From NCBI GenBank assembly GCA_021166845.1, contig JAJPEP010000108.1:1-64000 (forward strand): DNA of 64,000 nucleotides, read 5' to 3'. The DNA is from Thiobacillus sp. (GTDB lineage: Bacteria > Pseudomonadota > Gammaproteobacteria > Burkholderiales > Thiobacillaceae). This document shows, piece after piece, positions 58,814 through 64,000 of the stretch. Every line of letters starts with the position of its first letter. Position 1 is the stretch's first letter. The translations under genes were made by a program, and so were the position numbers. The notes under the pieces were generated by a model. That model searched no databases. It was not told the DNA's origin and saw only the letters and a program-made list of their open reading frames with translations.

Positions 58814-59445
58814 TCAAGAAACAGCTTGATGCATTATTATCTTCATGGAAATTCAAGGAGGCGCCTCGGTCCACTCGCTACAGGCGATGCTCTTATACTA
58901 CGTATCTATCCGTAACAACAAGACAAAAGCAGACAAAATGCGCAGCAGTAAACAAACAGGACGATATCGCCACACGTTACTGTTTTGATTCATTGTGTTG
59001 ACTCATTTCGGCAGCTGGAAACGTCACCGGCAGCCGGCGCCAAGCCATGCTTGCGGCGCTGCTATCATCTTCTTCTCGAGTATTATCTGGCTATTCACAG
59101 GGAACCTCTTCCCAAAACGATTTTATCGCTACGGTTCAACTACATTATCCCCTTGCATCGGGTTGCCACATCCGGACCAATCTGCAATTAAACGCACTCA
59201 AATTATTGTTTTGACTGGAAAATACCTTGCTTGACAAGGCAATCGAAAAACATACGCCGATTGTGTTAGGACACTGAGTTGGCGCGCTGCCATGGATCTG
59301 CATTCATATTTAATATCAATAAGTTATGGCGACAACAACCATCGCCTCACAGAGCTCGAATTGGCATAGATGGGCATAGTTTGGCGCCCAAATTGCCCCA
59401 AATTTGCCCCACGAAATTGGACCGCATACCGGGGCATAGCCAGTC

Positions 59446-59679
59446 GTGTACGAACGTAAGTTTCAAGAGGCTAAGCGTCAGCTTGGCGGTGCGGACGAGG
59501 TCATCAACCTCTGGCCGCAAGCCTACGGCACCAGCCCATGGAATGCCGTCCTGAAGGACAAGCTGGAGAATCGCCTTCACAAAGAGATGTGCGCCGGAGC
59601 CATTACGCTGAAACAGGCCCGTGGAATGCTCGTTGCCGATTGGCGCGAAGCGTACAAGAAATACTATCCCGCCCCGTAA
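59446..59679 (+). pseudogene. Probable 3' fragment of a larger (HNH-like?) hypothetical protein
   Basis: LGGADEVINLWPQAYGTSPWNAVLKDKLENRLHKEMCAGAITLKQARGMLVADWREAYKKYY; looks like the C-terminal half of a longer family. Confidence 0.5.
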
Positions 59680-59882
59680 ATCCATCGGGCTGCAGGCACG
59701 TCCGTTGCTCGGCCGAAGCCGCCGGTCGGGCTAACAGTTCAATATGACCGGTGTTCGGAATTTACCCGACAACGCGCTAGCATCCGAGTTCTGCTGTCAG
59801 TTTGCATTTATTCGACCTTGACCCCTGTGATTTGATCTTGGCCGAGCAATCCAGCATTAAGGGGTAAAACCGGAGATATTTG

Positions 59883-60209
59883 ATGACACTCGCACCGAGA
59901 CGACTCTTGCCCATCATCACTCTAGTCGTGGCTTCAAACGCGCAGGCCATTACCAGTACCGAATACCGTGCACTCCAAGAGGCCCAGCGACAGGCCTGGG
60001 TTGTCGGCGCGGTCGACGGAATCCTAACTGCCCAACTGTGGCAGACCAACAAAGAGCCGGAAATATCAAAATGTCTTGTGGGATTGCATCCAACACAGAT
60101 AAAGGCAATCTTCGAAAAAGCACTTGAGGCAAATCCGGAGCGCTGGCACTTTCCCGCAGCCTTCCAACTCTTCGATACTCTTCAAGAGTTCTGCACAGTA
60201 AGAAAGTAG
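59883..60209 (+). CDS. Small secreted protein, Rap1a/Tai-like
   Basis: Signal peptide (LLPIITLVVASNAQA), VVGAVDGILTA, CLVGLHPTQIKAIFEKALEANPERWHFPAAFQLFDTLQEFC. Confidence 0.55.
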   Translation: MTLAPRRLLPIITLVVASNAQAITSTEYRALQEAQRQAWVVGAVDGILTAQLWQTNKEPEISKCLVGLHPTQIKAIFEKALEANPERWHFPAAFQLFDTLQEFCTVRK

Positions 60210-60216
60210 CCCTGCC

Positions 60217-61431
60217 ATGAGCGATGACTACGAATACTTCAAGAACAAGAGGCCGGATCGGGTCTACCTAAGTCGCTCGCTTTCGCAAAAGCAATACCGC
60301 AAGAATGATGCGGGAGAGGTTGAAGAGTTTGAACGCCCTTTCCGGGTTGTCTCAAAGGTCATCGACTGCGGAGAGTCCCATCAGTTCTTCAAGGATGGAA
60401 AGCAAGTCTCCCTCCGAATTACCGACGGTGTTCGCCAGGAAGTCGTCGCAAAGTTTTACGAAGACACACGAGGCGTCTTCACACTTCAGATACAGCGTTA
60501 CACGGTTGAGAGTGGCGCACCCCACAGCACCCACTTCACGTTCATCAACGAAGAAATCTCCACTCTCTACAACTTCCTCCGAAACATAGACGTCCTTCCA
60601 TTGCGAGACGATCAAGGCGCAAAGCTGGACGACAAGTTTGTTTCCAGTCTCGTGCTCACGCGCGAACAGGCGCTTGGTCTGCTCAACTCCCAACCCGGCC
60701 TCGTTGAAGAGCTGGTCAGAACGCAGGTGACTGCGCAAGACGTTGCCGAACTCGGCCACCGCCGAGAACAGCTCGCAGAGTTCGAGCGGCTTCTCAATGA
60801 TTCACAACACTTCGAATCTCGGCGCGTCAGCTTGGGATCGAACAAGGGGCCAGAAGCGGTTTGGCAGTCGTTCTTTGAACAGAACACTTGGATCTTCGGC
60901 TATGGCTTGAACTATGTTTTCAATGCACCGCTGGACGGTGCAAAGCTTGAGCGCGCAGTGAAAGGGCATGATTTCGCCAGCGCTGGCAAGCGAGTTGATG
61001 CCCTATTGAAGACCCAGGGCCTCATCAGCGCATTGTCATTCGGAGAAATCAAGACGCACACCGCCGAGTTACTTAAGCCTGTCGCTTCAGCCTATCGCCG
61101 GGAGTGCTGGCAGGTTTCCGATGAACTGGCCGGAGGTATCGCTCAGGTTCACCGATCTGTGCAGGCTTCGTTGGGAAACATTCGTTCGAAGACAGAAATG
61201 AAAGATGACGCCGGCGCACTAACCGGCGAGTCAGTCTTCTTGTATCAACCCCGCTCTTTCTTGGTCATCGGCTCACTATCAGAGTTTCATGCTGCACATG
61301 GCATCAACGAGGATAAGTACTCGTCGTTCGAGCTCTTTCGGCGCAATCTCAAGTCGCCCGAGGTTGTCACATTCGATGAGCTATTTGCGCGAGCGAAGTA
61401 CATCGTGGAAAGCGGCGGTCAGGCAAAGTGA
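60217..61431 (+). CDS. Shedu-type anti-phage nuclease (DUF4263 / SduA-like)
   Basis: EAVWQSFFEQNTWIFGYGLNYVF, GKRVDALLKTQGLISALSFGEIKTHTAELL (PD-(D/E)XK core), YRRECWQVSDELAGGIAQV. Confidence 0.82.
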   Translation: MSDDYEYFKNKRPDRVYLSRSLSQKQYRKNDAGEVEEFERPFRVVSKVIDCGESHQFFKDGKQVSLRITDGVRQEVVAKFYEDTRGVFTLQIQRYTVESGAPHSTHFTFINEEISTLYNFLRNIDVLPLRDDQGAKLDDKFVSSLVLTREQALGLLNSQPGLVEELVRTQVTAQDVAELGHRREQLAEFERLLNDSQHFESRRVSLGSNKGPEAVWQSFFEQNTWIFGYGLNYVFNAPLDGAKLERAVKGHDFASAGKRVDALLKTQGLISALSFGEIKTHTAELLKPVASAYRRECWQVSDELAGGIAQVHRSVQASLGNIRSKTEMKDDAGALTGESVFLYQPRSFLVIGSLSEFHAAHGINEDKYSSFELFRRNLKSPEVVTFDELFARAKYIVESGGQAK

Positions 61432-61432
61432 C

Positions 61433-61502
61433 GCCCAACCCTTCCATCGAGAGGACATGCCCGGGCTAGCCGGGGCATGTCCTCTCATGTCAAACGTTGA
61501 CC
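61433..61502 (+). other. attC-like (59-base-element-like) quasi-palindrome; could alternatively be a terminator hairpin
   Basis: GCCCAAC at the start, CAAACGTTGACC at the end, inner stem AGAGGACATGCCC / GGGCATGTCCTCT, starts one base after the Shedu stop codon. Confidence 0.55.
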
Positions 61503-61978
61503 GGTAAGTGCTGAACACCGGACACAAAGAGCGAACAGTCTGAGTGACTGCTCAGGCCGATGAAAAGACAATCGCCGTTATCGAATTAACCTCTGCTTCT
61601 GGTCGAACGCAGGCAGCGGGGACTCTCTCTATTCGGCCTGTAGTTTTCTTTAGTTGCCTATAAAAGACGAATCCTGCGGGGGAACCAATACCAGTTCCGC
61701 CTGGCCAATAGTTACTGTTTCATTTTGGCACAAGTCCGCGTGCCGGCAGCGCGAGCCGGGTTGGCGGCTTCTGGGCAGCGCGCGCAGCCCGGTACCCTTG
61801 CGGGACACAGGAATGTTGGATTTCTCGCAGATCTTGCCGAGGGGACCTCGGTCTTCGCCTTGCTACAGACTTTAAGGGGTGTTACTACGCAAACTGGCCC
61901 AAAGCTGCATTCCAGCGACGTCACCCATGCGAATTAAAGCTTTGCTAAACTCAGTTCGACCTTGAGACAGCCTGGACC

Positions 61979-64000
61979 GTGACGAGCCCTGTAGACCGCA
62001 ACCACCCCCCCTGCCCCTCGCAATGGATCGTCTCCGAGCCCGAGGAGATGCCCACCGCGCCAGTCGGCGATCTCGTCATGGCGTGGGCTCGCGACCGTGC
62101 CACGGACGAGCCTCGGTATATCGGCGAGTTGAGCGCTCAGCAGCGTGGCAAGCACTGCAACTGCGAGTGCCTCAGCTGCGGTTTGCTTCTGGTGGCGGTC
62201 AATGCGGGCAAGCAATCGTTTATCCGCCGTCCCCACTTCAGGCACCCGGAAGGTGCCGAAAAGGACTCCTGCCTCGTCCTTGCAGCGCGCGCGGCGGCGT
62301 TGGAGGTGCTAAAGGGCACGGATCTTCTCGAACTGCCACGTCGCCGCCAGTCCCGTCGCATCGCTGGCCTCAGTGGGCAGTACTACGAGGCCTGGGTCGA
62401 GGCGCCGGCCGAGCGTGTCCGCGTCCGGGACCTCGCCTTTCAGGACAAGGTCAGCGGCATCCTGACACTCGATGATGGCAGACGGCTGCGAGTGGAGTTG
62501 ACAGGAAGTGTCAGTGCAGTCCCGGCCGGCGCATCTGAAACCCTAATTCCAACGATTCGCTTGGTCGTTGACGATCCAACTATCGCGGCCATGCCTCCCA
62601 GCGAGATCCGGAAGCGCCTCCGTCTCCTGGTGGAGAACGGAATCTGGTGTTCGCATTGGAACGACGCGAAGCTCGAGCAGGATGCGGAAGCAGCAGCGCA
62701 GGAATCCGCGCGCGCGGCTCTCGACTGGATAGAGGAAGGCGCGGATCTGCCGGAAGGGCTTAGCCCGGCAGCGAGACGTGAAACACTTCTGCACCTCAAG
62801 GCCAAAGAAATCCTAGAGCGCGAGAAGCGCATCAGACTGCCTGACCTGACAGCCGAATTGGACGCGGCTACAGACGACGGCGACGTCCTGTCCAGGCAGT
62901 TCTTGGTGCTCGGGCGGGTCGTCAACCTCGAGGCGGTAGCCCTGGAGCAACCGCTAGGTAGAATCCGGCCGGACGTCGTCGCCACCACCATCGCCGCTCC
63001 AGATTGGCCGGCGAGCCAGATCCTGGTCGAGATCACGGTCACCAACACCATTTCAGATGAGCGCATGGAGCGCATCCGGGCGCAGAACGTACCCGCGATC
63101 GAAATTGACATCTCTCGGATGGGCGGCATCGTGACGGAAACAGAGTTCGCAAGGTTGGTCGTCGAGGAGGCCGCCGGCAAGCGATGGCTACATCACCCCA
63201 GACTCGCCGAGGAAACGGCCAGGCTCGAGGAGGAGCTTGCGGCCGCAGTTAACGAGGCGAACCAGCAGATCCAGGAACTTTTGGAGAGCGATCGGCGACG
63301 CCGGGAGATGCAGCGGATACCTGCTGAGCAATGGGCCAGGGAATATCTTGACGCTGTTCTAGAGTACGCCGCGCTCCGCGAGCAAATGGAGGGTGATGCC
63401 AGCCTACGGCCCGACGTGGATCTGGCCTTCGGCCGAATTGCTGAGTGCGCCGACGGCCTTGCCGTGCACGGCTATCTCGAAGCTCAGGACCGCGACCTCT
63501 ATGGCTGGCGGGGCAACCTCTTGGAGCGGATCCTCTCAATCAAGCTAAACCGTGCCGTCGGCTACCAGCTGACCACGGCCTGGCAAGTTATCAACGCCAT
63601 TCTTCAGGAGGGGGCGTCTCATTTTCAGTGGCACACGCTGTACCTGATCGCGATCCGGCGATACCAGCCAACGCTCGCGCCTCATCAGGCCGCAAAGATC
63701 GCTAAGTGGCGAGAAGGAGTGCTGCACAGCCTTGATGCTGGAGAGCGAGCTTATCAACGGAGCCGCAAGTATGACAGCCTGCTGGCGCTGCTATTTCCTG
63801 AGATGGCGGACGCGCTTGCAAAGCCGCTGGCGAAACCGAGGATTGGCGCCCCGGATGGATCTCCTGCAGCCCCCGCCAACCTTCTGAGCGAGCGGACTGC
63901 TCCGCAGGAAGGCTACGTCGAGGTAGGATACCGAAACTCCAGACTGCGCCTACCCGTTCGGGGTTGCGACGCGTGGTTGGCGGCCAATCCAGGCTGGGAG
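61979..64000 (+). CDS. Large CoiA-like / PD-(D/E)XK nuclease-like protein with N-terminal Cys cluster, 3' end beyond window
   Basis: Manual translation, GTG start assumed; open to the window end (674 codons), absent from ORF track. CNCECLSCG, SFIRRPHFRHPEGAEKD, GRIRPDVVATTIAAPDWPASQILVEITVTN. Confidence 0.7.
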   Translation, partial: MTSPVDRNHPPCPSQWIVSEPEEMPTAPVGDLVMAWARDRATDEPRYIGELSAQQRGKHCNCECLSCGLLLVAVNAGKQSFIRRPHFRHPEGAEKDSCLVLAARAAALEVLKGTDLLELPRRRQSRRIAGLSGQYYEAWVEAPAERVRVRDLAFQDKVSGILTLDDGRRLRVELTGSVSAVPAGASETLIPTIRLVVDDPTIAAMPPSEIRKRLRLLVENGIWCSHWNDAKLEQDAEAAAQESARAALDWIEEGADLPEGLSPAARRETLLHLKAKEILEREKRIRLPDLTAELDAATDDGDVLSRQFLVLGRVVNLEAVALEQPLGRIRPDVVATTIAAPDWPASQILVEITVTNTISDERMERIRAQNVPAIEIDISRMGGIVTETEFARLVVEEAAGKRWLHHPRLAEETARLEEELAAAVNEANQQIQELLESDRRRREMQRIPAEQWAREYLDAVLEYAALREQMEGDASLRPDVDLAFGRIAECADGLAVHGYLEAQDRDLYGWRGNLLERILSIKLNRAVGYQLTTAWQVINAILQEGASHFQWHTLYLIAIRRYQPTLAPHQAAKIAKWREGVLHSLDAGERAYQRSRKYDSLLALLFPEMADALAKPLAKPRIGAPDGSPAAPANLLSERTAPQEGYVEVGYRNSRLRLPVRGCDAWLAANPGWE

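Follow-up and report, generated by a model that had tools for sequence, protein, structure and literature searches.

A CoiA-like PD-(D/E)XK protein, very probably with a duplicated core, encoded beside Shedu in a Thiobacillus genome

The gene and its genomic setting

Within the 64,000-nucleotide stretch of Thiobacillus sp. DNA that was analyzed (the window), a frame beginning at GTG 61979 on the plus strand stays open through base 64000, encompassing 674 codons. This frame, described as a long ORF in the original prediction, is closed when extended into the assembly contig (C38, 77,644 bp, of genome G000): the 15 bases beyond the window end supply four further codons and a stop, such that the complete coding sequence (C38:61979-64015) specifies a protein of 678 amino acids (Table 1). 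Each of the motifs first quoted for it, HCNCECLSCG (residues 61-70), RRPHFRHPEGAEKD, IRPDVVA, and ILVEITVTN, was found in the translation. A chance frame is unlikely because the protein aligns along its length with 24 distinct full-length homologs, the nearest of them, from MAGs of Thiobacillus (tblastn identities of 77% and 72%), start at the aligned position, and substitutions accumulate in excess at third codon positions. Relative to a Thiobacillus homolog, substitutions by codon position numbered 116/90/282, with third positions dominating and a dN/dS of approximately 0.17; the third-position excess recurred in all four homologs compared by codon, and the three close enough for computation gave dN/dS values of approximately 0.1-0.2 in every computable domain. 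The existence of a real gene at this position was thus confirmed. No sigma-70-like promoter was seen upstream of it.

The gene lies next to that encoding SduA (Shedu), as had been stated, with approximately 550 bp of intergenic DNA between them; SduA is a separate upstream gene, and no match to the SduA_C domain was obtained in the CoiA-like ORF. Just past the SduA stop is a 38-base inverted repeat (61449-61486; 95% self-complementary), probably a terminator hairpin, and a small ORF just upstream of SduA (59880-60209) gave a sub-threshold match to Rap1a immunity proteins (22.4 bits against a cut-off of 27.7). A single weak PADLOC match to SduA (PDLC00405, E 7e-7) also appeared in the host-gene control set (window positions 51-58813 together with loci L098 and L099). 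The three ORFs share a strain-specific segment. One relative (G866) is collinear with the contig up to 59261 and then runs into mutS, and another (G825) is collinear from 64406 onward; since each covers one side, the flanks of 59262-64405 are not adjacent in either. Given that collinearity breaks at both points and that the flanks are not neighbors in these relatives, positions 59261 and C38:64406 suggest both an insertion and a site prone to rearrangement. No direct or inverted repeats of at least 11 bases were found at the edges of the segment.

Table 1. Features of the strain-specific segment and of the CoiA-like protein (window coordinates unless prefixed C38)
Feature	Position	Strand	Basis
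Strain-specific segment with Rap1a-like ORF, SduA, and CoiA-like gene	59262..64000, to ~C38:64405		Collinearity breaks in relatives
SduA (Shedu), separate gene, context only	60217..61431	+	PADLOC E=1.6e-151
CDS, CoiA-like protein with proposed tandem core	61979..64000, continuing to stop C38:64013-64015	+	Open frame, 24 homologs, dN/dS
N-terminal CoiA_N-like zinc ribbon, HFRH motif	62162..62272	+	Conserved residues, hhalign to CoiA_N-bearing short relatives
Core 1, probable diverged, degenerate nuclease-core copy (residues 99-246)	62273..62716	+	hhalign, shuffle control, model, variable Glu
Core 2, intact PD-(D/E)XK-like nuclease core (residues 258-430)	62750..63268	+	Invariant residues, model, SSO0001 match
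Long helix after core 2 (residues 407-445)	63197..63313	+	Full-length model
Helical C-terminal domain (residues 449-615)	63323..63823	+	hhalign; Pfam of DUF7830-DUF6035/CoiA_nuc proteins

An intact and a degenerate core

The protein opens with a zinc ribbon whose residues C62, C64, C67, H89, and C98 are invariant in all 24 long homologs, and which aligned by hhalign with that of the CoiA_N-bearing short relatives at a probability of 98.2%. The candidate catalytic residues of core 2, E268, H272, K276, E323, D332, and E351, are likewise invariant in 24 of 24 sequences, and the segment 262-432 matched the short family with a probability of 99.9% (E 7e-37). Modelled alone by AlphaFold from 21 rows, core 2 (pLDDT 93.4, pTM 0.85) is predicted to adopt the order helix, six strands, helix, strand, helix, in keeping with the PD-(D/E)XK core fold (helix, mixed sheet, helix, with acidic residues at the sheet). 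Its top Foldseek match in the PDB was SSO0001 (PDB 4ic1; Prob 0.95, E 2.6e-3, low TM-score), which we take to be a Cas4-family nuclease, followed, among the matches of higher probability, by SPARDA nuclease chains and R.SwaI, with MspJI and a Cas4 chain at lower probability; TM-scores were low throughout and none of these PDB matches passes E=0.001. Viral structural matches included UL24, YqaJ-type, and named PD-(D/E)XK nucleases. The assignment of the protein to the PD-(D/E)XK group was therefore borne out by a confident model of core 2 and by structural matches that, among those of higher probability, are mostly nucleases of this superfamily; a nuclease fold is predicted, albeit at PDB E-values above 0.001.

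The third position of the active site is not lysine, the E-x-K of the superfamily being replaced by E-x-T/A/V in 24 of 24 homologs; R or K at residue 362 is a possible migrated base. A profile comparison placed core 2 over the CoiA_nuc/DUF6035 region of another group of proteins (L051-type), RPD...EITVTN falling on RPD...EIQLS with a probability of 67%, and core 2 is read as a CoiA-type PD-(D/E)XK core in which E-x-T replaces E-x-Q. Together with the matches of the zinc ribbon and core to the short relatives, this transitive link to CoiA_nuc upholds the description of the protein as CoiA-like. The first-helix His with the Asp and Glu presumably recalls the RecB/Cas4 nucleases, and the protein is likely to be an active nuclease.

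Between the ribbon and core 2 lies an insert of approximately 150 amino acids that is absent from the short CoiA-like proteins. When this extra segment (104-262) was aligned with the core of the short family, a collinear match of 134 columns was obtained (Prob 82.8%, score 43.6), compared to a maximum of 17.4 in 59 trials with shuffled columns and 11.7 with the reversed profile; as a negative control, the C-terminal segment scored 17.7 against the same core (Prob 0.5%). The insert also aligned collinearly with core 2 directly (Prob 47%). That it represents an unrelated domain was rejected on the strength of the 43.6 score against the shuffle maximum. In the full-length AlphaFold model, a helix at 95-110 is followed by six strands, a further strand, and helices, and a helix at 263-282 by six strands, a helix, a strand, and a helix; core 1 lacks the helix between its last strands and otherwise repeats the order of elements of core 2. 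Because the insert aligns with the short-family core and this order recurs, the core has most likely been duplicated, and the protein is very probably a CoiA-like PD-(D/E)XK protein with two copies of it. At the position aligned to E351, core 1 carries D, R, K, E, L, or other residues, and its dN/dS is similar to that of the intact core 2. Given this variable catalytic-Glu position and the low dN/dS, core 1 is probably, judging from its sequence, a pseudo-nuclease retained under purifying selection. The tandem of a degenerate and an intact core is a new point; the duplication was missed in the original prediction, and no paper describing a two-core form was found in the literature searched on CoiA and DUF6035.

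Such an arrangement could also be that of a single-chain, modification-dependent restriction enzyme akin to MspJI, with core 1 reading modified bases and core 2 cutting. MspJI does figure among the top PDB fold matches and the gene stands alone, but the MspJI matches, at E 0.05-0.12, are weak, and core 1 has the look of a degenerate nuclease core, not of a base-recognition domain, making this reading very unlikely.

What had been taken for a coiled-coil stretch corresponds to the long helix that follows core 2 in the full-length model. The helical domain beyond it matched proteins of DUF7830-DUF6035/CoiA_nuc architecture (Prob 99.2%, E 1.7e-19 by hhalign) and, on this profile evidence, is a module common to another CoiA-related subfamily. 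With a pTM of 0.49, the packing of the full-length model was too loose for a useful fold search.

Distribution, gene neighborhoods, and possible role

A tblastn search of plasmid records returned 17 matches, eight of which cover most of the protein; these eight are all annotated as 'hypothetical protein,' and some of the weaker ones as 'competence protein CoiA family protein.' Scanning of genomes yielded 13 more loci, all betaproteobacterial. Within the sampled order, 18 of 399 genomes carried a match of any length, and the long form is patchy even within the genus (5 of 56 genomes). A profile of the eight full-length members recovered the 24 long proteins, all betaproteobacterial where an organism is named and several plasmid-borne, plus a separate short class (mostly ~240-350 amino acids) that carries Pfam CoiA_N, matches positions ~35-110 and 250-430 only, and is found on 59 plasmids, some of them conjugative. 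A tblastn search of 50,697 phage records found homologs of neither the long form nor a short one; a few short forms are present in IMG/VR contigs. The long protein gave no direct match to Pfam, NCBIfam, PADLOC, PHROGs, or PDB sequences: PADLOC 2.0.0 returned no family at E<=1, and neither this protein nor 13 long homologs contained Pfam CoiA_N or CoiA_nuc above cut-off, with weak DUF7830 matches in three.

Additional related genes were observed. A paralog of 73% identity is truncated by the end of another contig of the same genome (G000:C113:32263-33390; L005:7261-8391), where it lies downstream of a recQ-like ORF of only 318 amino acids and is preceded by genes for a HEPN_RiboL-PSP protein, a TauD-like ORF, and a 316-amino acid protein. 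A replicon with a long homolog also encodes a 385-amino acid protein (L061:1462-2616) composed of the CoiA_N zinc ribbon and a core-1-like segment only, with a faint PADLOC match to DruB1 (E 0.046). On plasmid pEP1, a separate second 'competence protein CoiA family' gene (L018:12208-13317) is situated 2.2 kb from the long homolog.

The possibility that the homologs would prove confined to natural-transformation loci was not borne out: apart from the CoiA-family genes themselves, no annotated competence gene was present in seven plasmid neighborhoods, and a competence locus is unsupported by the neighbors examined. Defense genes were recognized beside several homologs, viz., GajB (Gabija) directly upstream in L035, PDC-S11 in L032 and L036, and PDC-S18 in L029, and genes for restriction, AbiEii, HipA, and methyltransferases are annotated close by in the plasmid records. 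The neighbors of the homologs gave 274 PADLOC models in 97 genes compared to 9 in 67 host genes, a comparison that is suggestive only because redundant Gabija models inflate the counts and the bias of accessory regions is uncontrolled. In L004, an exosortase-family gene (L004:4404-4970; TIGR04178 above cut-off) lies downstream and, with a look-alike on the opposite strand (L004:8047-8598), brackets proteins that appear to be secreted; beyond these, a very long ORF resembling a YD-repeat (Rhs-type) protein runs off the contig.

The proposal that the gene encodes a defense nuclease is hence plausible in light of these neighbors and of a CoiA-domain system from E. coli, but its neighbors vary and some are ordinary, as at L028, where the homolog sits between a transporter and a gamma-glutamyltranspeptidase gene. 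A functional selection in E. coli yielded 21 validated anti-phage systems, one of which contains a CoiA domain (PMC9519451). Defense is the single most likely role, though a far from certain one.

With moderate confidence, the protein is proposed to act as an accessory DNA nuclease that stands alone, belongs to the CoiA-like branch of the PD-(D/E)XK superfamily, and arose through an ancestral tandem duplication of its core. The zinc ribbon and core 1 may bind DNA, or hold the protein as a pseudo-dimer; core 2 would then cut, its probable targets, on the model of the Cas4/RecB-type nucleases, being DNA ends or unusual structures, while the C-terminal domain may sense or oligomerize. Less surely, its role would be to degrade the DNA of incoming phages or plasmids, with the gene serving as a single-gene defense module on plasmids and variable islands. 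More tentatively still, it may constitute a new defense system in which the dead core and zinc ribbon recognize invading DNA or its ends and core 2 cuts, carried on betaproteobacterial plasmids and islands.

A somewhat doubtful alternative is that the protein processes the DNA of plasmids or mobile elements, trimming or protecting incoming single strands or ends at entry, establishment, or recombination, as has been proposed for CoiA in transformation, where it is predicted to degrade one strand at uptake (PMC1189080). Full-length homologs in eight plasmid records, the occurrence of short relatives on 59 plasmids, and the proximity of some plasmid copies to integrases, and of that in L023 to SbcCD, are consistent with such a role; the chromosomal-looking locus beside Shedu, contigs without obvious plasmid genes, and the inconstant linkage of transfer or recombination genes argue against it. 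Of lower probability is a toxin-like or abortive-infection nuclease that attacks host nucleic acid upon infection. The C-terminal helical domain could be its sensor, and abortive infection is the probable mode of action of 12 of the 21 systems described in PMC9519451, but no antitoxin-like constant partner accompanies the gene; an all-against-all comparison of neighbors revealed no constant partner of any kind beyond three related Hydrogenophaga/Acidovorax loci. This reading is considered unlikely.

Comparison with known systems

CoiA-like genes are frequent on plasmids. A prediction from 2005 made CoiA itself a PD-(D/E)XK nuclease, with a PD-EXQ site, that breaks down one of the strands as DNA is taken up (PMC1189080). 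As in the CoiA family (PF25164 CoiA_N, PF06054 CoiA_nuc; COG4469), a zinc ribbon with HFxH and Cys residues precedes a PD-(D/E)XK-type core and a C-terminal domain; unlike that family, the protein has no direct Pfam match, two cores rather than one, no competence setting in the neighborhoods seen, and E-x-T/A/V in place of PD-ExQ (PMC1189080). Its likeness to the CoiA-domain anti-phage system (Vassallo et al., 2022; PMC9519451) is one of domain name, PADLOC giving no match for the protein studied here, although that system shows CoiA domains to be capable of a part in phage defense. With one core intact and the other degenerate, the subfamily provides a testable case of CoiA-like action outside transformation, and bears on whether plasmid genes labelled 'CoiA family' conceal nucleases that serve in defense or against plasmids; the protein goes unnamed in all the family libraries searched.

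With the Cas4/RecB-type exonucleases, represented by SSO0001 as the best structural match, core 2 shares a His in the first helix together with an Asp and a Glu, but it is without Fe-S cluster cysteines and a catalytic Lys at the usual place. The short CoiA-like plasmid proteins (~240-350 amino acids) have the same ribbon and share the motif of core 2, E-[IV]-x-V-[TN]-H followed by EI(D), but have neither core 1 nor the C-terminal domain. Conversely, the DUF7830-DUF6035/CoiA_nuc proteins (L051, L011, L065) have the C-terminal domain in common with the long form and, more remotely, its nuclease core, but differ in possessing a zinc ribbon of another family, a single core, and an E-x-Q-S motif.
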